Positions 1,033-14,867 of a stretch of 22,082 nt of DNA are shown in pieces. Positions within the stretch are counted from its first letter, which is position 1. Each line of letters starts with the position of its first letter. Origin of the DNA: a virus. Where the stretch lies: the IMG/VR virus record IMGVR_UViG_3300022200_000735, positions 1 through 22,082 of that record. One strand, 5' to 3'. A model generated the notes under the pieces. That model was not told the DNA's origin and did no database searches. It saw only the letters and a program-made list of their open reading frames with translations. The translations under genes and the position numbers were made by a program.

Positions 1033-1314
1033 TTAGCTTTCTAATAACTTGTTTTGACTTGCAAGTAATTGACCTGTAGTCGCATTGGCTTGAACCATCT
1101 CATTACGAAATGACTCCACCGCAGCGCCTGTATGTCTCTGTTGTTGGCTGTTCTCAATAGTAAGAATAGGCATCCACGCAATCGCACAACCGTACTCGTC
1201 TATCTCTTTACCTGTATTTGGATTATTCCCTCGCAGTTGAGTAAACCACGCACACTTCATCTGTATGCAGTCTTTCTTAATAAGAGGGCAGAACGTACCT
1301 TGCTCTAGCTTCAT
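1033..1314 (-). CDS. Conserved phage hypothetical protein with four cysteines
   Basis: A 93-residue protein whose ATG overlaps the stop of the tail-collar gene as ATGA, so translation is probably coupled. The N-terminal half holds four cysteines at 9, 16, 21 and 43 (FCPLIKKDC, MKCAWF, YGCAIAW), which suggests a small metal-binding or Fe-S knuckle. The C-terminal half is a Gln/Asn-rich helical tail (GAAVESFRNEMVQANATTGQ). I recall similar proteins from phage genomes next to tail or lysis genes, but no function is established. The spacing C-x6-C-x4-C-x21-C does not match a standard zinc finger. Gene reality is well supported by the overlap and composition; function is unknown. Confidence 0.75.
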   Translation of the reverse strand: MKLEQGTFCPLIKKDCIQMKCAWFTQLRGNNPNTGKEIDEYGCAIAWMPILTIENSQQQRHTGAAVESFRNEMVQANATTGQLLASQNKLLES

Positions 1315-2099
1315 GTTTTTGTACAGATAATTACGTCAACATACTGAACGGCTAAATCAAGGCTGTGTGTGTGCGCTGTGCCACCGCCAAGTGCAGATGT
1401 TGTACCTGATACAGAAACAGAGTGAGCGTGGTCGCCTACTGCATTGATAGATAAACCGTGAGCATGAGCGCCTCCAATATCAGTAAAAAGTGCGCCTTCT
1501 GGCCCACCAGCGCCTACAGATGCTCTACCAAAACTATCACCTGTGTTAGATGTTTGAATATTATGTTGATGCCCACCATGAGTATCGGTAGCACCACTAT
1601 GGCTATGACCACCAGCATTGCCAGTCGAACCACCTCCACTAAATGTATGGGTGTGACTTGGTATTTGGTCTGTTGTAAGTGTCGTATTGCCAACGTTTTG
1701 CGAACTAAAGGCTGTCGTAAAGTTAACTGAACCTCCTGTACCTGCTGTTCCAGTCACTACTCGCAAAGATTTATTGTTATGAGTCGTGTCTTTTGTCCAA
1801 CCAGTAGGTGCAGTTGATTGTTGAAATAATATTTTAGTGCCACTTGGTAAAGCATCAATTAGCCTACCATCTAGCGTAGAAGCACCTGACAATGCAGATG
1901 TACCTGTCACGGCTAAGTTACCACCTACGGTTAAGTTGTCACCCGATGCGCCTGTTTGAAAGTCTTTCAACTGTGCCATCAACTCGCGAAAAGCATTGTT
2001 TACAAGACCTGGTGACATACCTTCGGCAATGTTGATGCCGTCTATGTCGGTGTTGCCTGATGCCGTTGCATCAAACTCAGAGATTTTTGTCTTTGACAT
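1311..2099 (-). CDS. Tail-collar / short tail fibre-like receptor-binding protein
   Basis: A 262-residue protein. The N-terminal part (about 1-80) is a likely virion-attachment and trimerisation region, with a Gly/Thr-rich repeat-like stretch (NLTVGGNLAVTGTSALSG). Residues 85-115 (LPSGTKILFQQSTAPTGWTK) match the conserved opening of phage tail-collar domains. The C-terminal half holds six HxH motifs (149-151, 165-167, 177-179, 212-214, 224-226, 243-245) in Gly/Ser-rich linkers and ends in the typical VQYVDVIICTKT strand. In T4 gp12 and gp37 comparable histidines bind metal ions along a trimeric fibre axis and the tip binds the receptor. The start overlaps the preceding stop as TAATG. Being a receptor-binding tail tip is a strong inference; the receptor is unknown. 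Confidence 0.85.
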   Translation of the reverse strand: MSKTKISEFDATASGNTDIDGINIAEGMSPGLVNNAFRELMAQLKDFQTGASGDNLTVGGNLAVTGTSALSGASTLDGRLIDALPSGTKILFQQSTAPTGWTKDTTHNNKSLRVVTGTAGTGGSVNFTTAFSSQNVGNTTLTTDQIPSHTHTFSGGGSTGNAGGHSHSGATDTHGGHQHNIQTSNTGDSFGRASVGAGGPEGALFTDIGGAHAHGLSINAVGDHAHSVSVSGTTSALGGGTAHTHSLDLAVQYVDVIICTKT

Positions 2100-5596: not shown

Positions 5597-6634
5597 TTAC
5601 CCCAATAATCCAAGACCAGCACCAGCCGCCGCACCAAGCCCACCGTAACCCTCTGGAGCTAATGCCGCACCCGCCGCCGCACCTGATAATGCGCTACCGA
5701 CTCCACTTTTATAAATAGGTCTTGATGTTTGTGAACCCATTGGTGCGCCATACGCGGCAGACAAGTAAGACTGAAGTGCTGAGTAAGGCGCGGCTTGTTC
5801 AAAGTTGAATCGTTGCATCGCATCACCCAATGCCAATTCTTGATAACCTTCTTGCATTTGACCTAAATCAATTAAGCGCTGAATGTCGGCATAGTCTTGA
5901 GATGCCATGTCGGGTGACATACCCGCCGCTTGTAATTGACGCTGATAATCTTGTGCCGCTGTTTGACCCAAGCCACTCGCCGCGCCCAATTGTGTTTGCA
6001 ACGATTGGTTAGACAATTGACCAAGGTTTTGAATAGCGTTCTCTTGAAAGCCACGCTCTTGACCGTAATTTTGGTAAGCTAAGTTACCTGCGGTATCAGT
6101 AAGCGCTTGAGCATATTGACCCATTGCACGGTCTTGCAAGTTACCCATCGCACCTGAACCGTAACGCCCTGCCTGTGATGCTTGAGAATTAAGCTGTTGA
6201 ATTTGGTCTTGAAACTGTGTTTGTGCGCCACGCGTAGCGGCGTCAAATGCCCCGCTAAAGAACGGATTGCCACCAAGGTAACCACCTGTTGCTGTGTTTG
6301 CCGTTAAGCCCATAGCGGGGTTATACGCGGCTCGGTTATAAATGTCACCAAACGCACCTGTAGCGGGGTTGATTGCTGTCTGTAAGTTACCGACCACGTT
6401 TTGTGCGCCAGCAACAAGTGGCGAACCCGCTAAAGCTCGTTGTTGTGCCATCTGCATACCTTGTTGGGTCATATCAGATGCGCCAACGTAGGTTTGCCCA
6501 GGGTAAAACTGAGTTGGCCCAGACTTGTACAGGTCTTGCGCCTCTTGCAATCCATACTGCACGTAAGGTGCAATTGTCGGGTCTAACTCTGTCTTAACTG
6601 TCTGTGTACCGCTCGAACTAGGACTACCGCCCAT
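5597..6634 (-). CDS. Internal virion / ejection-type protein with Gly/Ala-rich C-terminus
   Basis: I place the start at ATG 6634, because AAGGAG lies seven bases before it; an in-frame TTG at 6640 is a poorer choice. That gives 345 residues. The N-terminal 60 residues contain a motif region (TELDPTIAPYVQYGLQEA, then FYPGQTYV) that I recall from Gln/Gly-rich virion proteins of aquatic phages. The middle is a long Gln/Ala/Asn-rich helical section (QFQDQIQQLNSQASQAG, RGFQENAIQNLGQLSNQ). The last 35 residues are Gly/Ala-rich and uncharged apart from one Glu (SALSGAAAGAALAP, LGAAAGAGLGLLG). It is the first of four such genes in a row. A DNA-ejection role is inferred from this. It overlaps the preceding GNAT-like gene by 11 bases. 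Confidence 0.65.
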   Translation of the reverse strand: MGGSPSSSGTQTVKTELDPTIAPYVQYGLQEAQDLYKSGPTQFYPGQTYVGASDMTQQGMQMAQQRALAGSPLVAGAQNVVGNLQTAINPATGAFGDIYNRAAYNPAMGLTANTATGGYLGGNPFFSGAFDAATRGAQTQFQDQIQQLNSQASQAGRYGSGAMGNLQDRAMGQYAQALTDTAGNLAYQNYGQERGFQENAIQNLGQLSNQSLQTQLGAASGLGQTAAQDYQRQLQAAGMSPDMASQDYADIQRLIDLGQMQEGYQELALGDAMQRFNFEQAAPYSALQSYLSAAYGAPMGSQTSRPIYKSGVGSALSGAAAGAALAPEGYGGLGAAAGAGLGLLG

Positions 6635-7028
6635 AATCAATCTCCTTCGCCCAACTACGGGGCTTAAAACCTAACTTTGGGGCAACCTTTGACCACGCGG
6701 GTCGCCATGAATCAAATGTAATTCGCTCCGCATTTGACGCTCTTGCAATCTCTTCAACCTTCTCAAACCAAACTTCAATCTCGCCTTGTAGACTGCCAGA
6801 TGCACACCATACGTGGAACGCATTGTTAACCGTTACACCCACAATAAAGCCGACTGTATAGTTATCTTTGTTCGCTAACCATAACCCTGCCTTATTGTTT
6901 ACTAAACTTGCATACACGTCTTCAGGTATCCAAGGCTCTTGGGTCTTTTTTAACAAGTCACACAAGCCACCCCTAACGTATGCCCAAACGTTCCTAATCT
7001 CTTGAGTCTGAACGTATTGAAATTTCAT
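6624..7028 (-). CDS. GNAT-like acetyltransferase-fold protein
   Basis: A 134-residue protein whose ATG overlaps the previous stop as ATGA. The order of elements fits the GNAT fold: an N-terminal helix pair (NVWAYVRGGLCDLLKK, then EPWIPEDVYASLV), strands LWLANKD and TVGFIVGVTV, a strand ending HVWCASGSL, a helix (EVWFEKVEEIARASNAE), then the strand ITFDSWRPAW and the C-terminal KLGFKPRSWAKEI typical of this fold's end. The canonical acetyl-CoA loop (Q/RxxGxG/A) is not clear, so it may have lost catalysis and serve a structural role. Phage genomes often hold such a protein between tail and internal-protein genes, as here. Fold assignment is by pattern only. Confidence 0.6.
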   Translation of the reverse strand: MKFQYVQTQEIRNVWAYVRGGLCDLLKKTQEPWIPEDVYASLVNNKAGLWLANKDNYTVGFIVGVTVNNAFHVWCASGSLQGEIEVWFEKVEEIARASNAERITFDSWRPAWSKVAPKLGFKPRSWAKEIDYGR

Positions 7029-7807
7029 GCAACCACCACGTAAGCATATTGCTTATCAGCATCAGAATTAGCCCAATGATTGATTGTAGCTTGTCCGTTC
7101 GTCTGATTGGTGATATATACATTACTGTATGCTTGCGGAGCTATATAACTCATTTTAGCAATAACGGCAGGTATTGACGGTCTAGGTATCACAACGTCAG
7201 CAGGGAAGTTCTCTAATACTACCGTTGTTGCGCTAACGTAACCAACTATTTCTACGTAATCGTTTGCTTCAAGCTCTAAGTAAGTATTAAGAACCCCCAC
7301 CACATGCGATGGTTCAGTTGCTGACTTTCTAATTGGCATAAAAAACTTTCTTGCACTTTCAGGAACGTCTACTCCATTCACTCGATACCAAATGTCGGCA
7401 AATTCCACAACATTAGATAAACTACTTAGCAATAAAGATACAAATACATCATATATACCCGCATTGCGAACATTTAACCGTGTCGTGTTGCTTCTATATA
7501 TACCGCTTGCAATCATAGTCGAATCAAATTCAACAATGCCAACTACGCCATCACCCGATGCTAATTGCCCTGTATTGTTACTAAACTCGCCATATGGGGC
7601 TGTATCTGTAAACGCAGAACCTGACGCGGGTAATAATATAATCTTACTGTCTCGACTAATGAGTGGGTCATACAACGTAGTCGTGGTCGCGTTACCCGTT
7701 GCAAGCGTAATAAGACCTGTGTTATTGGTTTTGCCCGTTAACACGCCATTCATAACCTCCGCGACTTCACGCGGTGACCCGCCCTGCGGAGGCAACCTTC
7801 TAAACAT
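7025..7807 (-). CDS. Tail accessory protein with inserted C1q/TNF-like jelly-roll domain
   Basis: A 260-residue protein that appears to have two layers. Residues 1-71 (RRLPPQGGSPREVAEVMNG, then TNNTGLITLATGNATTT) and 223-260 (YVTNQ-like start, INHWANSDADKQYAYVVVA end) look like the two halves of a short phage protein usually near 110-120 residues. Between them, about 72-222, lies a beta-rich domain with the pattern of C1q/TNF-like jelly rolls: VRNAGIYDVFVSLLLSS, EFADIWYRVNGVDVP, and LNTYLELEANDYVEIVGY. Such domains in phage tails commonly mediate trimer contacts or receptor binding. It starts on the stop of the nozzle-like gene (TAATG) and ends overlapping the GNAT-like gene (ATGA). The domain assignments are by pattern; the function is inferred. 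Confidence 0.65.
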   Translation of the reverse strand: MFRRLPPQGGSPREVAEVMNGVLTGKTNNTGLITLATGNATTTTLYDPLISRDSKIILLPASGSAFTDTAPYGEFSNNTGQLASGDGVVGIVEFDSTMIASGIYRSNTTRLNVRNAGIYDVFVSLLLSSLSNVVEFADIWYRVNGVDVPESARKFFMPIRKSATEPSHVVGVLNTYLELEANDYVEIVGYVSATTVVLENFPADVVIPRPSIPAVIAKMSYIAPQAYSNVYITNQTNGQATINHWANSDADKQYAYVVVA

Positions 7808-9243
7808 TATCTATTGCTCACAGATTGAGTCTCAACGTCAACAGCCATAACATTGCTCCAAGTGCCAGTTGGTACTATTTTAAACCTATGATAGCGACCT
7901 ACAGACCTTAACGGCACTCTGTTTTCAGTACTAGCGGGTAATTGGCTACCAAATACAACATCTGCATCTAATCGGTTACGTGATGCCACCGCAACGCTTG
8001 CAGAACCACCATCTACCTGTGGATAAGCTAGTTTTGCAATGCTTTGCATACCGTCTTGTATGTCACCCGTAATAATTTCTGAGGGCATAGGCGTGCCACC
8101 AAACAAGATAATTTTATCGTTACGCACACCCGATAAGATAGCTTTGCCACCCGCCCATAATCGAGAATCTAATGATGCAGGAACACTCTCTATGCCACCA
8201 TATATGTTTAGTTGCTCAAGTGTCGTACCTGTTGTCGTGCTTGGCGCAATATAGTTGCAAGTCGTTACACCGTGCGACCAACCGTTGACCTTCCAGTTAT
8301 ATATTAAAAAGGATAAAAACCCACTCGTATTAGGGTAAACCCATATAACAATTTGTCTCTCAGGGTCGATAGTGGCGCTCATTTGATTTAATGTGATTTC
8401 TACTACGTCATTAAAGAACCATCTGTCTACCTTTTCGCTACCAATGCTCATAATAGCCGTGCCATCGCAGACATAAAACCCGTCAGATGATAAGAAATAA
8501 GTCTTATTCTCATATTGAGCAACGGAGTTTGGCTCGTAGCAACCAAGGGTTTTAGAAAGTGTGTCAAACTGAAAGAATAATGGTGCGCCAATGTATGACA
8601 TACGCACAACAGATTTTTCAAGCAGGACTAATCCAAACTCACCGCCCGTAATAGCTTGTATATTTCCACCGTCAGGTATTACTTGGAAGTCTGATTGTGA
8701 TGTTGCCCCCGCAGTCCAAAGTGTTTCATTGTTAATATCTGACCAATAAATTTTATTTGGCTCGCTCGTATTTCGACTTGCAACAACAAAGTCACGCACA
8801 ACCGTCACATAAGACGCAACAGGAGCATCGGCTGATAAGTCAGCCCAATTAGTAGACGTTCCAATTACCCACGACTGTAGCTTGTTTTGACCGTTAGCCC
8901 CAATTAAGGTGTTGCCAAACTGTATAAAGTTCCATCGTGTTGTTGATACATAGTCAGTCAGAACTGTAGCCACTAAGTACGAAACATTATCTAAGTCTAA
9001 ATTGTTAGCATTAAACTTGTAGATTCTATTTTCGCTCGCTGCGAACAATTGAACCGTGTCACCGAACTTGCCCGCAATGGTTGTCAGCAATGGCTGTGAG
9101 GCAGAGTTTGAAAAGTCTGTTACGGTTGGGAATGGCCCATACCCCGATTGTTTTGGGAATACATTAAATGCTTCTTGTAGCGCACCCGTTAACCCTGGCT
9201 GGTCTGGTAGCCACTCACCTAGAACTAACCGTTTCGTAGCCAT
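7807..9243 (-). CDS. Tail nozzle / hub-like protein (beta-propeller type)
   Basis: I place the start at ATG 9243 (MATKRLVLGEWLPD), since AAGGGA lies at good spacing; a frame extension to 9273 lacks that support. The protein is 478 residues and strongly beta-rich, with blade-like stretches each holding an aromatic/Asp pattern: VQLFAASENRIYKF, FIQFGNTLIGANG, VVRDFVVASRN, NKIYWSDINNETLW, GEFGLVLLEKSVVRMSY, NKTYFLSSDGFYV. This resembles the propeller-containing nozzle/hub proteins of short-tailed phages (P22 gp10 and its functional counterparts), which plug the tail channel below the adaptor. The C-terminal region (RYHRFKIVPTGTWSNVMAV) is a typical final strand pair in these proteins. It overlaps the preceding repeat protein by 19 bases. 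The class is a fair inference, not a firm homology call. Confidence 0.7.
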   Translation of the reverse strand: MATKRLVLGEWLPDQPGLTGALQEAFNVFPKQSGYGPFPTVTDFSNSASQPLLTTIAGKFGDTVQLFAASENRIYKFNANNLDLDNVSYLVATVLTDYVSTTRWNFIQFGNTLIGANGQNKLQSWVIGTSTNWADLSADAPVASYVTVVRDFVVASRNTSEPNKIYWSDINNETLWTAGATSQSDFQVIPDGGNIQAITGGEFGLVLLEKSVVRMSYIGAPLFFQFDTLSKTLGCYEPNSVAQYENKTYFLSSDGFYVCDGTAIMSIGSEKVDRWFFNDVVEITLNQMSATIDPERQIVIWVYPNTSGFLSFLIYNWKVNGWSHGVTTCNYIAPSTTTGTTLEQLNIYGGIESVPASLDSRLWAGGKAILSGVRNDKIILFGGTPMPSEIITGDIQDGMQSIAKLAYPQVDGGSASVAVASRNRLDADVVFGSQLPASTENRVPLRSVGRYHRFKIVPTGTWSNVMAVDVETQSVSNR

Positions 9244-9818
9244 ATATTTGTCCCTTGTGGCAGTACAGACCAATTTTCGCCAATTAACTCAATGTCAACA
9301 ATGTAACTAGCATTACCATCTATGTTAGCAGATGTAAAGGTGGTTCTCTGAACAAACAAATCAACAGTTGCCAAACCTTCTAAGTCTGCAAATGCTGAAT
9401 AAATAGCAACAGACGAAAAATCAACATCAGCCTCGCCAATAACAGAGCTAGAAACTAAGCGTAATCGAATAGCAGAACCGTCTGTTGTAGCGTCACCAGT
9501 AATAGATGCGTCTGTAAAGGTGAACCTATTTGCATCAATATTGACAATTGCAACACTCGTAACGCTTGCAGATGCCATTGCTGTTTTTAATAGCTCAATG
9601 TCAACTTGAGCATCACCAAACACAGACAGGTCAACAAACACTAAACGGTTTGCATTGAGATTGACAGTAGCAACACAATCAATATTGGCAGATGAAAAGA
9701 ATAGACCAATTGTGTCAAGATTAACTGTCGCTAAACCGTTAGCAGAACCCGCAGCGGTTTTATCATCCCTATTAGACGTTGAAAGAGGTAATTCTGACAG
9801 CGCAGAGAATCCTAACAT
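9225..9818 (-). CDS. Tail-associated protein with eight 20-residue repeats
   Basis: A 197-residue protein. The opening MLGFSALSELPLS is, from memory, a common start of short phage virion proteins. Residues 24 to about 177 are built from eight 20-residue units with no indel: an alanine recurs at positions 30, 50, 70, 90, 110, 130, 150 and 170, each in the setting x-I-x-G-x-A-x-V-x-h, with a hydrophobic pair about ten residues later. The strict phase suggests a stacked beta structure, such as a solenoid or parallel beta fibre, rather than a globular enzyme. The C-terminal ENWSVLPQGTNIWLRNG, with its Trp pair, may cap it. GGGGG lies just before the ATG at 9818, one base after the previous stop. 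Function is unknown; position among fibre genes implies a virion role. Confidence 0.7.
   Translation of the reverse strand: MLGFSALSELPLSTSNRDDKTAAGSANGLATVNLDTIGLFFSSANIDCVATVNLNANRLVFVDLSVFGDAQVDIELLKTAMASASVTSVAIVNIDANRFTFTDASITGDATTDGSAIRLRLVSSSVIGEADVDFSSVAIYSAFADLEGLATVDLFVQRTTFTSANIDGNASYIVDIELIGENWSVLPQGTNIWLRNG
9288..9749 (-). repeat. Eight tandem 60-base coding repeats (20-residue protein repeat)
   Basis: Codons 24 to about 177 of the 197-residue tail protein. Units read GSANGLATVNLDTIGLFFSS, ANIDCVATVNLNANRLVFVD, LSVFGDAQVDIELLKTAMAS, ASVTSVAIVNIDANRFTFTD, ASITGDATTDGSAIRLRLVS, SSVIGEADVDFSSVAIYSAF, ADLEGLATVDLFVQRTTFTS, and a partial last unit ANIDGNASYIVDIE. The DNA copies have diverged, but the 20-codon phase is exact. 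Confidence 0.85.
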
Positions 9819-9819
9819 A

Positions 9820-10137
9820 TTACCCCCAAACGCGCATTGGGTATGGCTGTGGGTCGATAGAGAATGGCTCTAGTGGCTCTGAGTTTTCGTTACCGACAAC
9901 ACGCACGTTTACAAACCAACCTTCATATGGCACGGGTTCAGGAGGGTTCTCAGGGTCAACGATTTCCTGTGGCTCGTATATCACACCGATTGTGTCGATG
10001 TTTTGGTAATTAGCAACCTCATAACCCTCAACAGCTTCCACACCATTTTCAGGGTCAGCTTCTACTGCGCCTTCAATACGGTATAAGACTGTGCGTGATT
10101 CGGCTTCGTCTGTGAATTTTAGATATAGGTCGGTCAT
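9820..10137 (-). CDS. Small acidic tail accessory protein, function unknown
   Basis: A 105-residue acidic protein. It opens MTDLYLKFTDEAESRTVLY, a pattern I recall from many short proteins next to phage fibre genes. The centre is Glu/Pro/Val-rich (DPENPPEPVPYEGWFVNVRV) and the end is PFSIDPQPYPMRVWG. No motif or membrane segment is visible. An AAAGGA ribosome binding site stands seven bases before the ATG. It sits between a fibre gene with carbohydrate-binding-like modules and the 20-residue repeat protein, so an assembly factor or small structural part of the tail is plausible. The gene is real by spacing and codon pattern; function cannot be given. Confidence 0.65.
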   Translation of the reverse strand: MTDLYLKFTDEAESRTVLYRIEGAVEADPENGVEAVEGYEVANYQNIDTIGVIYEPQEIVDPENPPEPVPYEGWFVNVRVVGNENSEPLEPFSIDPQPYPMRVWG

Positions 10138-10147
10138 TTTGTTTCCT

Positions 10148-11962
10148 TTAACTTGTGAGGGCTTGAAGTTGAGTGTTGGTTAAGCGTTGGGGATAGTAGG
10201 CTATTTTACTAATGCACCCAGTAAGCCTCTGGCCATATCCAACAGACAAATCACCAATTGTGAGACGATTTACGCCACTAGGTAAAATACCGAACGTATC
10301 TGTTTTAATAGTCCCGCCATTAAATGATGCAGCAAAATCATTAACTTTATACCCAAAAGATGATTTGTAACTTACACCTGATTGTGGCACAAACCCCGCA
10401 GACAAACCTGCTTGGTCAACTGCCCCCGAGCGGGTGTAATAAAAAATATTGCCATTTGTAAATTGAGGGGCATAAAAAGCATTGCTACTTGTGCCGTCAC
10501 TAATGCCAGTAGCATTATTTCCACCTGCTTGCAATGAAATGGGTCTAGCTTCAACATAAATGCTCCCCTCATCAGCCCGATACCAATCACTAAAGTTCGT
10601 CCCCGTCATGCTCGCAGAATCAGCAGACCGTGTGACTTGTGAGGCTTGAGTTTTTACGTAAGAGGTCGGGAATGCACCCGCTTCAAGCTGTGCGCCCCAT
10701 ATGTAGATGCCTGAGTAGCCATCGCCTGTGACATTGAAAGCCCCTTTTGCATCGCTAACCCCTATTCCCCAAGCTGCATTTGAAGCCTCTGTTGAAGAAA
10801 AACTAACTGTAATTTTGTAAATTCCATTACCAACGTTGACAACAGTTAAAATGCCTGTTGCGGTACTGCCAGATAGAATTTGAGTCGATCCGTCAGTTAA
10901 ATCAACATAATAAACACCATAATTAGCGGAACTATAATGGTATAGCCAAATAACAGATTTATTTTGTTTTTTAGCAAAGACTGTAAATGACCTTGACGCT
11001 CCTCCAGAGGTATTTGATTGATATAAATAAGAAACCGATGACGTGCTTGGGATAAGCAAATCCATCGTTAAAGCACCGTCAGGGGCAACAACTGTATTAG
11101 CTGTTACCGTAGAGCTAACCTTAGACCAACTAGCATCCCCAAAATCTTCAGAGTACAACAACAAATTAGTCCTCTGCTCCTCCACCAACAACCCCAAAGA
11201 CTCCCCCGTTACAGGGTCATGGTCAAACCTTGCTGAGTTTGCAGGGGCTGTGAGTAGGGTAGGGATATAGTTGGTGATGGGCTGGGTAGTGGTTGGGGTG
11301 TAGGCTGTGACTGTATCACGGGCTTCTAATTGAGCGCCCCAAAGGTACACGCCATCTGTTCCGTTACCAGAAAAAGTAGCTGTGTCTACAGTTTCATAAA
11401 AATACAACCAAAATGATGTATGCGCAGACGTTAAAGAAACAGACACCCTATAAAACCCGTTGGCTTCGGCTGTGACGGTTGTTTGACCTGAAAAATCAGC
11501 ACCTAACCCCGCAGTAGGATTAAAACTAGCAGAGCCATCTGTTAAATCAATCTGTACGTTACCAGCTGTACCACCCAAAAAGTAAAACATTGCAAAGTTA
11601 TAACCCCCACCCTTTAGGTAGAAAGACATATTGTTATTTCCACTTAAAGTTGCTGGAAATGACCTGTATATTCTGTGGCTCGATAAAACAGCGTTGGGTA
11701 TAACCAAGTCCGCAGTTGTTGTCCCATCAGGAGCAGTTGTGCTATTAGCTGTAACAGTAGTACTGCCTTTTGCCCAAATAGCGTTGTCAAACTCCTGACT
11801 ATAAATAAACAAATTCTCCTCAGCCTTCGTAACCGTTTTCCCATCATAATAAGTCGCAGTCGATGCACGAGAATAAGTGATACGAGGGTCTAACTTCTTT
11901 GTCAGCGCAAAGGAAAGATTGAGCGAGGGGTTAATGATTGGGTAATTCTGTGAAATAGACAT
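10148..11962 (-). CDS. Tail/head fibre protein with two carbohydrate-binding-like modules and a LamG-like end
   Basis: A 604-residue protein. Residues 1-49 (LDPRITYSRASTATYYDG) are the conserved start seen in phage spike/fibre proteins. Two related modules follow: about 50-221 (opens NLFIYSQEFDNAIWAKGS, closes GVYLWGAQLEARD) and 266-437 (opens NLLLYSEDFGDASWSKVS, closes GIYIWGAQLEAGA). They are joined by ARFDHDPVTGESLGLLVEE, a linker also typical of these fibres. Residues about 455-604 resemble a LamG/concanavalin-like beta sandwich (GSIYVEARPISLQAGG, NRLTIGDLSVGYGQRLTGCI, YYPQRLTNTQLQAL). Such domains usually bind glycans, so host-surface recognition is the likely role. AAGGAA precedes the ATG. 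The preceding gene has a third copy of the module. Fibre class is well supported; the ligand is unknown. Confidence 0.8.
   Translation of the reverse strand: MSISQNYPIINPSLNLSFALTKKLDPRITYSRASTATYYDGKTVTKAEENLFIYSQEFDNAIWAKGSTTVTANSTTAPDGTTTADLVIPNAVLSSHRIYRSFPATLSGNNNMSFYLKGGGYNFAMFYFLGGTAGNVQIDLTDGSASFNPTAGLGADFSGQTTVTAEANGFYRVSVSLTSAHTSFWLYFYETVDTATFSGNGTDGVYLWGAQLEARDTVTAYTPTTTQPITNYIPTLLTAPANSARFDHDPVTGESLGLLVEEQRTNLLLYSEDFGDASWSKVSSTVTANTVVAPDGALTMDLLIPSTSSVSYLYQSNTSGGASRSFTVFAKKQNKSVIWLYHYSSANYGVYYVDLTDGSTQILSGSTATGILTVVNVGNGIYKITVSFSSTEASNAAWGIGVSDAKGAFNVTGDGYSGIYIWGAQLEAGAFPTSYVKTQASQVTRSADSASMTGTNFSDWYRADEGSIYVEARPISLQAGGNNATGISDGTSSNAFYAPQFTNGNIFYYTRSGAVDQAGLSAGFVPQSGVSYKSSFGYKVNDFAASFNGGTIKTDTFGILPSGVNRLTIGDLSVGYGQRLTGCISKIAYYPQRLTNTQLQALTS
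10652..11167 (-). repeat. Fibre module copy C (second copy in the 604-residue protein)
   Basis: Encodes residues about 266-437. It shares the opening NL-x-x-YSEDF, the VTANTVVAPDGALTMDLL segment and the IWGAQLEAGA close with the other two copies. Similarity is clear in protein and patchy in DNA, as at the GCGCCCCA block near 10690. Confidence 0.75.
11300..11815 (-). repeat. Fibre module copy B (first copy in the 604-residue protein)
   Basis: Encodes residues about 50-221. Shared landmarks are NLFIYSQEFDNAIWAK, TVTANSTTAPDGTTTADL, a central LTDGSASFNPTAGL and the YLWGAQLEA close. The DNA near 11330 (AATTGAGCGCCCCAAAGGTA) is nearly identical to that near 12208 in copy A. Confidence 0.75.
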
Positions 11963-11972
11963 TATGTATTCC

Positions 11973-13232
11973 TTATGCGAGTGTCAGCGTAGCACTACGA
12001 ACCGTACCGTCTGAGCCTTTTACTTTGACTACTAGAGATGTATCTGAGGCTAGTTCAAAAGTCATGTCAGCATTACGTGCAGGGGTCATTGAAGCCAACA
12101 AAGGTAACGCTAAACCATTAGGCGATTCAAGTGGTGCGGCATATGCTGTGGTAACTGCTGTAGCTACGGTTTTGAGGTAGGGTTGTGGTGTTGCAGAGGC
12201 TGTTAATTGAGCACCCCAAAGGTACGCACCTGAAGTGCCATCACCTGTGTATGTGTTAACAACTGCTGCCGCTACGTTATTTATAAAAAGCGTAAACCCT
12301 GCACCACTTGCACTAGAGGTCGCTGTTGCTGTAATAGTACAGCGATAAATATCATTACCAATAAGTGTTATTGTGGCATCAGTTAATCCAGCAGCAGGGT
12401 TAAATGTTCCGCTTTCTAAATCAAAAACCGCAAATGCAGTAGCTCCAAAAGCAAGACTACTTAATACCAAAGCTAAATATTGACGCTCGCCTTTTTTTGC
12501 ATAAAAGCTAGAGGTGTAGCTTGTTCCGCTAATATATGAGTAATTCCCTGAATAAATATAATGATGCCCACCTGCTGCGGTTTCTACTAATTTATCCATT
12601 GTTAAAGTACCGTCAGGAGCAACAATTGCATTGGCGGTTATGGTTGTACCATTTTTAACCCAATAAGCATTAGTTAAATCTTCTGTGTAAGTCACCAAAT
12701 TTGTAGCCCCGCCCCGCAACACAGCACTAGACCCTGCTAAAAACTGCTCTGCATTTACGATACCTGTGTTTACAGCATCTGTTGACACTTGAGCGGCTAA
12801 ACTTTGTATATCTAGCCCTGCTAAAGTCCCACCTTCAATGACTACGCTTTCTAAGTCTTGATAAGCTAATGAGCCAAGGTATTGATTCAACGGAATCTCG
12901 TTTGGGGCTGTGCCGATATCGGCTTGGGATACTGAGCGGTCTGCGGGGTAGGTTACAAATACTTCTTTGTTGCCAACACTAAACGATACCTTTGCACCCG
13001 CATTAGACGATGACAGTACTGTGTCGCGAGTGAGGGTAGATGATGAATAAGTACCTACACCTACCTCCCACTCGGTAGCCACAGCAATATTAACTATTGT
13101 GTAATAACATTGGTTTCCGTTACCGATGGCTGTAAATGCTTGATAGCCACTAACCGCGCCACCAAGCGTAATTGTGCCCGTGCCACTAGTCGTGCTAGAT
13201 TCTTTTACGCGGTCAGCTATCACTAAAGCCAT
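11973..13232 (-). CDS. Tail fibre protein with one carbohydrate-binding-like module
   Basis: A 419-residue protein. Residues 1-100 (MALVIADRVKESSTTSGTGT, ATEWEVGVGTYSSSTLTRD, VFVTYPADRSV) form a conserved phage fibre N-terminal domain, probably the virion anchor. A linker (about 101-177) leads to one copy of the module shared with the next gene: residues 178-356, opening NLVTYTEDLTNAYWVKNG, then APDGTLTMDKLVE, ending AYLWGAQLTASATPQPYL. The last 60 residues (PARNADMTFELASDTSLVVK) form a beta-rich tail and could be a trimerisation end. AAAGGAA gives a strong ribosome binding site for the ATG at 13232. Ten bases separate it from both neighbours. Host-surface binding is inferred from the module type and position. 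Confidence 0.8.
   Translation of the reverse strand: MALVIADRVKESSTTSGTGTITLGGAVSGYQAFTAIGNGNQCYYTIVNIAVATEWEVGVGTYSSSTLTRDTVLSSSNAGAKVSFSVGNKEVFVTYPADRSVSQADIGTAPNEIPLNQYLGSLAYQDLESVVIEGGTLAGLDIQSLAAQVSTDAVNTGIVNAEQFLAGSSAVLRGGATNLVTYTEDLTNAYWVKNGTTITANAIVAPDGTLTMDKLVETAAGGHHYIYSGNYSYISGTSYTSSFYAKKGERQYLALVLSSLAFGATAFAVFDLESGTFNPAAGLTDATITLIGNDIYRCTITATATSSASGAGFTLFINNVAAAVVNTYTGDGTSGAYLWGAQLTASATPQPYLKTVATAVTTAYAAPLESPNGLALPLLASMTPARNADMTFELASDTSLVVKVKGSDGTVRSATLTLA
12165..12701 (-). repeat. Fibre module copy A (in the 419-residue protein)
   Basis: Encodes residues about 178-356. It aligns with copies B and C through the NLVTYTEDLTNAYWVK opening, the TANAIVAPDGTLTMDKL segment, DLESGTFNPAAGL in the middle and the YLWGAQL close. 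Confidence 0.75.
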
Positions 13233-13635: not shown

Positions 13636-14253
13636 TTACCTCGCTGATACTTTCATTTGTAAAGGGACACCGCTATGCTCAGAAGAGTCATCTGCGGCAG
13701 TTAATGCTGCTAAACCTCGGTCAAACATACTTGCCCATACTTGCGTTCTAGCATCATTCATTAAGTACGGCTCTGCCTCAATTAAAGCACCGTACAAAAT
13801 TAAGTCTGGGCAAGTTGCTAGAAACTCATTACTCGGCACAGTATCGCCAAGGTATTCAGGCGCACCGTAGTAAAGAATTTGTAATGAGTAATCTGAGTCG
13901 GGAATCGGTGCAAACTTAAACTCGTTCGCTAATATTGTATAAAAGATAGGGATGCCAGACTCTTGCACCCGTGCATTGCGGTTAAACAATGAGGGTGACA
14001 TATATTGCAAATCTAATACTGGATTTGTGTTTAGAAATAAAGTACGCAACTCTAAGAAGTCCGTAGGCAATGAAACGGTAGAATCACCGCCTGTTGTGAG
14101 TGTTTCGGCTGACTTGAGCATCTGTCTGATACGCAAGTTTCTACGCAAGCGAACCTCTGCTAGACGAATAAAATCAGGTATGACCGCAGTTAAGTCGCTT
14201 CTAGCTAAGTAATTAGCAATTGTCGTCTTTAGGTCGCTGTAATTGGTTATCAT
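13636..14253 (-). CDS. Head-tail adaptor protein (SU10 adaptor / gp4-like)
   Basis: A 205-residue protein. It opens with the helix expected of this family (YSDLKTTIANYLARSDLTAV), followed by IPDFIRLAEVRLRRNLRIRQ, a basic helix that packs against the portal in related phages. The middle is beta-rich and typical: STVSLPTDFLELRTLFLNT, then FKFAPIPDSDYSLQILYYGA. The C-terminal helices include ATCPDLILYGALIEAEPYLM and DARTQVWASMFDRGLAALTA. Such adaptors form a ring of twelve under the portal and connect it to the nozzle. The start overlaps the glycosyltransferase-like stop as ATGA, so the two are translationally coupled. Family membership is well supported by the ordered motifs. Confidence 0.85.
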   Translation of the reverse strand: MITNYSDLKTTIANYLARSDLTAVIPDFIRLAEVRLRRNLRIRQMLKSAETLTTGGDSTVSLPTDFLELRTLFLNTNPVLDLQYMSPSLFNRNARVQESGIPIFYTILANEFKFAPIPDSDYSLQILYYGAPEYLGDTVPSNEFLATCPDLILYGALIEAEPYLMNDARTQVWASMFDRGLAALTAADDSSEHSGVPLQMKVSAR

Positions 14254-14867
14254 TTAATATCACCCCAGCCGTATTCTTTTGTGCCGATATGCTTAATGTA
14301 CTTTGAAAGCACATGGTCAACATGCGTTTTAATATTAAAATCCTGCGCCTTGATGCAAAAATGCACATCCTCGCCAATTATACTACCTGCATCAGTCCAA
14401 AGTATGTCAAACCACGGCTCGGCAATTTTACTAAACACAGATGTTCTTGTTAATGTCACACCAAAACCAACAGCAGATACTTCCTCTACATAATCTTTTC
14501 CTACGCTATTCACTTTCTTAAACACGGCAGATTCATCTATCATTTCTACATTTAACGCAGTAGGCAAAACAGGCTCTACACGAGTCGTAGCGTTGACCCC
14601 GCATATATCCACACCGTGCGCCAATAAAACCTCATACGTGTCGGCAGGAAAGCGCATATCACTATCAATCCACAAGATTGCTTCAGCACCTGCATCTATC
14701 GCTGTCTTGGCAAGTTTTTCTCGTTGATGAAAGATAAGTGTGCCAGGCATTTGAAACAATAAGACTTCATCGCCCATCTTTGTTTGATACGCTACCAATC
14801 GAGCTAAATCAAAACAAAAGCCCGACATTACTTGGTCACGGCATGGTACGCAGATAGCTAACCTCAT
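14250..14867 (-). CDS. GT-A-type glycosyltransferase-like protein
   Basis: A 205-residue protein with the landmarks of a GT-A fold, family 2-like nucleotide-sugar glycosyltransferase. The first strand is RLAICVPCRD (2-11). REKLAKTAIDAGAEAILWID leads to the metal-binding D68-S-D70. VGFGVTLTRTSVF (133-145) follows, and GEDVHFCIKA (165-174) supplies the E166-D167 pair expected at the acceptor or catalytic site. A late HIG (193-195) could give a third metal ligand. It is shorter than most full GT2 enzymes, though phage versions of this size exist. It sits between capsid-side genes and the adaptor with ATGA overlaps on both sides, so it is made together with head proteins. Substrate and target (capsid, DNA or host glycan) are unknown. 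Confidence 0.75.
   Translation of the reverse strand: MRLAICVPCRDQVMSGFCFDLARLVAYQTKMGDEVLLFQMPGTLIFHQREKLAKTAIDAGAEAILWIDSDMRFPADTYEVLLAHGVDICGVNATTRVEPVLPTALNVEMIDESAVFKKVNSVGKDYVEEVSAVGFGVTLTRTSVFSKIAEPWFDILWTDAGSIIGEDVHFCIKAQDFNIKTHVDHVLSKYIKHIGTKEYGWGDIK

Follow-up and report, generated by a model that had tools for sequence, protein, structure and literature searches.

Described tail proteins and related folds

In the podophage SU10, the short tail fibre gp16 docks on the nozzle protein gp17, and the gp16 gene precedes the nozzle gene (PMC9509320). SU10 gp16 is a trimer with an alpha-helical proximal domain (PMC9509320). Phage GP4 encodes fibre I (gp80; Pfam PF23140), a non-repetitive protein. 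Among cellular proteins, the DUF2807 or head-GIN putative adhesins (4opw, 3ljy, 3pet) are built of repeated beta coils. The length of the Pfam model PF21786 (Bflower_3) fits six 20-residue units. Methylophilales phage Venkman has a short tail by electron microscopy, yet is listed as a siphovirus via similarity to phage P19250A (PMC8163748).

Here we describe a repeat protein that is encoded, like SU10 gp16, directly upstream of a nozzle gene in a related podophage tail. It was found in a viral contig of 22,082 bases (the window), which covers the structural region of a short-tailed phage resembling SU10 and GP4. No sequence similarity of the repeat protein to SU10 gp16 was detected, nor to GP4 fibre I, a different protein whose gene belongs to this tail module too and lies a few genes before the repeat gene.

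Organization of the tail module

The order of genes in the window is SU10-type portal, adaptor, GP4 fibre-I homologue, putative fibres, repeat gene and then nozzle. The main features are:

7807..9243, minus strand: nozzle protein gene, start MATKRLVLGEW; matches PHROG 3287 (E=6e-65) and PDB nozzle chains 8zkm/8zkk (E ~1e-9)
9225..9818, minus strand: repeat protein gene, 197 aa; N-terminal motif MLGFSALSELPLS, eight 20-aa coils and a C-terminal Trp coil
9228..9281, minus strand: C-terminal GENWSVLPQGTNIWLRNG, residues 180-197; two Trp at a spacing of 10, the minimal version of the tail of 2, 4 or 6 Trp seen in the family
9258..9737, minus strand: eight 20-residue coils, residues 28-187; coil 8 is terminal and merges into the Trp motif
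9738..9818, minus strand: N-terminal segment, residues 1-27; in alignments it fits the family motif M(F/L/Y)G.(S/T).(F/L)(S/A)..P.S
9820..10137, minus strand: small gene just upstream of the repeat gene, 105 aa; PHROG 18574/1361; a homologue is adjacent in L001
10148..11962, minus strand: tail protein, putative receptor-binding fibre, 604 aa; PHROG 5939 tail protein, E=1e-105
11973..13232, minus strand: putative tail fibre, 419 aa; the middle region matches PHROG 5939, and the N-terminus resembles the 745-aa fibre of L187/L189
13243..13629, minus strand: GP4 fibre-I (gp80) homologue; Pfam PF23140, E=2e-52; PDB 8jou_a
13636..14253, minus strand: head-to-tail adaptor; PDB 9nwi adapter, E=5e-13; adaptor 7z47, E=3e-9

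The 3' end of the repeat gene lies inside the nozzle gene, with a 19-nt overlap. The adaptor, fibre I and nozzle identified among its neighbours support the placement in a tail cluster that an earlier note, made from the letters of the window, had proposed. A search of the window for RNA families and tRNAs found none.

Several neighbouring genes merit separate mention. The two adjacent putative fibres (10148-13232, minus strand) have a common domain and both match PHROG 5939 and 34853. Their counterpart in L001 (L001:3-2027) ends in a different, LTSFPLID-type repeat, which suggests an exchange of receptor-binding parts. Far downstream of the nozzle, at 1311-2099 (minus strand), is a gene with a tail-collar-like N-terminus; in 52 related loci its homologue is located directly after the repeat gene and before the nozzle. 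A gene that appears glycosyltransferase-like by eye (14250-14867, minus strand; IDSDMRFP motif) is found among the structural genes, between capsid and adaptor, and its homologues keep the same place in relatives. A possible acetyltransferase gene (6624-7028, minus strand) lies downstream of the nozzle, and its positional counterpart in L005 carries an acetyltransferase annotation.

An exactly phased 20-residue repeat

Counted from residue 28, the window protein runs through eight 20-mers with no insertion or deletion. Unit position 3 is Ala in all eight (residues 30, 50, 70, 90, 110, 130, 150 and 170), position 5 is Val in six of the eight, and position 19 is I, V or L in every unit. BLOSUM autocorrelation gave z=6.7 at lag 20, z=7.6 at lag 40 and z=7.8 at lag 60, with an additional half-period signal at lag 10 (z=3.1). 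The autocorrelation values at lags 20, 40, 60 and 100 (0.32-0.66) exceed the maximum of 0.24 reached at any lag in 2000 shuffles. The eight exactly phased units with recurrent alanine that had been read by eye are thus upheld; the profile counts seven full units, the eighth being the terminal coil that runs into the Trp motif. Tandem Repeats Finder gave no match on the repeat DNA even at score 30, indicating that the DNA copies have diverged, as the earlier note had also stated. Comparison of residues 103-197 with L001, the closest relative found, yielded a dN of 0.028 and a dS of 0.52. These values argue that the protein is real and constrained, and it is under purifying selection.

A family of coil-repeat proteins upstream of the nozzle

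Relatives were gathered by profile scans of viral contigs and by a separate scan anchored on the nozzle, which revealed a large viral family; about 200 of its proteins were examined, and an alignment of 34 members was too diverse to serve for a locus scan. The repeat gene lies upstream of the nozzle in 58 of 62 nozzle-anchored loci, 42 of which have an identical 19-nt overlap; since near-duplicates are numerous among these contigs, the counts do not represent independent events. Fibre I immediately precedes the repeat gene in 106 of the 173 repeat loci. Four nozzle-anchored loci lack the repeat gene. In L187 and L189, both spanned from fibre I to nozzle, a 745-residue fibre and a 101-residue protein replace it; L226 has fibre-type genes of other kinds, and the upstream sequence of L199 extends for only 1.5 kb. 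The repeat protein is thus usual at this position yet replaceable.

The window protein shares with the family a short N-terminal motif, tandem coils of 20 (19-21) residues and a Trp tail with a spacing of 10, and its gene occupies the family's place between fibre I or other fibre genes and the nozzle. It is best regarded as belonging to an undescribed family of coil-repeat proteins of phage tails. Among cultured or named phages, members include Venkman gp51 and genes of the Manatee Spring phages annotated as "serine-rich adhesin". These share the locus and about 30% identity with the window protein but have more coils and 4 or 6 Trp; their annotations derive from weak similarity only, and we found no characterisation of them. 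Venkman gp51 (L002:12001-12717) is annotated as E3 ubiquitin-protein ligase HERC6, apparently in error. The remark in the earlier note on loosely similar phage repeat proteins with no described structure is supported insofar as homologues occur in cultured and environmental phages, and no description of the family was found in the literature searched. A scan of genome contigs returned no cellular relatives; it relies on short patterns and is weak evidence.

In every family member, one of several N-termini leads into consecutive coils, which are followed by a Trp tail. Coil number ranges from about 5 to 18 (values include 7, 9, 10, 13, 14 and 18), and the comparison of unit number among relatives that had been proposed for this protein thus gave differences of whole coils. 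In a first set, 1244 of 1271 coil-to-coil steps were of 20 residues and 27 of 21, counts somewhat biased towards 20 by a segmentation that penalises other spacings. The subfamily nearest to the window (MLGF..., 156-197 aa) includes a 19-residue coil, and the L055 group has 21-residue units. The exact 20-residue period is therefore a property of the window copy and not of the whole family. The earlier note would have taken relatives that break the 20-residue phase as evidence against its reading; the 21- and 19-residue coils count against it in part, though each departs from 20 by a single residue and the coil pattern is preserved.

The Trp tail is still more regular. Its gaps are 10 residues in 621 of 621 cases, and the number of Trp is 2, 4 or 6, never odd, in all 197 readable proteins (27 clusters), six entries with a count of 0 being left out as one-residue fragments produced by start-codon choice. 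In 132 of 137 proteins, the first Trp is found 15 residues beyond the point where the last coil starts. The tail therefore stays in the 20-residue phase, each pair of Trp making up one whole coil. Compared with the PDB, the Trp tail gave no significant match.

Predicted fold

Per-position statistics show outward polar residues alternating with inward small or aliphatic ones. Large aliphatics are found at coil positions 5, 12 and 19 (Val5, Val/Ile12, Ile/Val19), with small residues between them, and this spacing of 7, 7 and 6 is what a triangular solenoid coil would need. The AlphaFold models of the window protein (pLDDT 53.6, pTM 0.51) and of the L018 protein (pLDDT 48.7, pTM 0.42) are of low confidence; in both, strands recur with the period. 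The window model has no helix and the L018 model only three helical residues, so that no counterpart of the alpha-helical proximal domain of SU10 gp16 is predicted at this low confidence.

A profile search matched the DUF2807-type putative adhesins 4opw (E=2e-5) and 3ljy (E=0.002), and 4opw was also the best PDB match of the window protein alone (E=0.017). Foldseek gave no match at E <0.001; its most plausible match was 3pet (probability 0.98, TM 0.53), with a query model too weak to rely on. The adhesins thus provide the best profile and structure matches, with coils similar in length and pattern, but they are cellular proteins, whereas the phage family has a Trp tail and no match to Pfam DUF2807 (PF10988) above the cut-off: L030 scored 15.4 bits against 24.2, the window protein did not match, and the best E among 34 members was 0.0015. 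Overall, a beta-solenoid fold of the repeat protein is likely but unproven. Of the structure prediction and the repeat-wise stacked beta structure suggested in the earlier note, the stacked structure is the best reading of the in/out alternation, the aliphatic positions, the predicted strands and the weak DUF2807 profile similarity, while the monomer prediction repeats its strands with the period at low confidence.

In regular relatives (L018:1664-2614 and similar), the outward face carries Thr-x-Thr pairs reminiscent of ice-binding solenoids, and such a pair occurs in 816 of 1738 profile-scored family units. An ice-binding-like face was rejected for the window protein, which has mostly Asn or Asp at the second position of the pair.

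The protein might instead be an obligate trimeric beta spike, a triple-stranded beta-helix or beta-prism such as T4 gp5, in which three chains would wind around one another at the tip of the tail. Trimers are common among phage fibres and spikes, the SU10 fibres and needle are trimers (PMC9509320), and low confidence of a monomer model is expected of an obligate trimer. However, aliphatics at positions 5, 12 and 19 of every 20 residues could close a triangular coil within one chain, and the sequence and fold matches are to single-chain solenoids. We consider the trimeric spike unlikely, if the most serious of the alternatives.

Role of the protein and changes in coil number

Our best explanation, to which we give about an even chance, is a three-sided beta-solenoid of 20-residue coils with a C-terminal Trp-coil closure, which most likely acts as a short tail fibre or adhesin at the nozzle, docked on it or close by. 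The coils would stack into a small solenoid, its C-terminus closed by one tryptophan coil; the protein would be carried in the virion, would dock on or near the nozzle and would contact the host surface. Beta-solenoids stack at about 4.8 A per coil, and at that rise the window protein would be roughly 4 nm long. The place of the SU10 gp16 gene before the nozzle gene offers a positional analogy. Against the short-fibre reading, the window and L001 proteins vary in their N-terminal part, whereas phage fibres usually vary at the C-terminus. The low confidence of both models and the lack of a predicted helical domain like that of gp16 also weigh against it.

The protein could also be an assembly factor or chaperone for a neighbouring fibre or for the nozzle, and not a fibre of the virion. 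The overlap with the nozzle gene suggests coupled expression, and presence in the virion is itself inferred. Extended coil repeats and whole-coil changes would be unusual for a chaperone, though, and the repeat gene is retained beside many different fibre genes; we regard this role as improbable.

Variation between close relatives bears on the length of the protein. On either side of the repeat region, the DNA of L048 matches that of L008 at about 94% identity, yet the two proteins differ by 80 aa, or four whole coils; L227 and L230 differ in length by one 19-aa coil. Among sampled pairs with nozzles 80-90% identical, repeat protein length differs in 65%, and mean identity is 73% for the repeat protein and 90% for fibre I. 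The window and L001 proteins are strongly diverged over the first 82 residues; the DNA is 94.5% identical from the second half of the repeat gene onward, and the 193 nt just upstream are 92% identical. The repeat protein evolves faster than the nozzle, and such rapid, modular change next to a conserved gene is more in keeping with contact at the host surface than with a length standard that is fixed.

The idea of a ruler, suggested in the earlier note, or of a spacer, with some tail length dictated by the number of coils, is accordingly weakened. Changes do come as whole coils, and many lineages hold one length (296 aa in 33 of 35 proteins of one cluster). Nevertheless, the four-coil difference beside 94% identical flanks, the unequal lengths in most pairs with similar nozzles and the two loci that keep a nozzle with no repeat gene (L187 and L189) make this very improbable. 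Least probable of all is a closed ring, the "6-fold beta flower" of PF21786: L018 (44.0 bits) and L008 (37.3 bits) pass the Pfam cut-off of 34 and the model length is about six 20-residue units, but the window protein has no match, and the family's coil number is variable, with values of 7, 9, 10, 13, 14 and 18 that argue against a fixed six-fold ring.

Returning to the solenoid fibre, a broader proposal is put forward tentatively, at odds below even: that single-chain beta-solenoid tail fibres of an undescribed kind are widespread in uncultured short-tailed phages, where they may gain and lose whole coils and one to three Trp coils, altering reach or binding surface without affecting assembly, and may be exchanged with long conventional fibres. 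The family is common in environmental short-tailed phages, no function is assigned to it in the protein libraries searched, and the annotations that do exist, such as the E3 ubiquitin ligase of Venkman, are doubtful. If the protein is a coil-counted fibre, the family would offer, in near-identical phages, a naturally occurring set of beta-solenoids that differ in their number of whole coils, which would be useful for relating fibre length to host contact and for following the gain and loss of solenoid coils.
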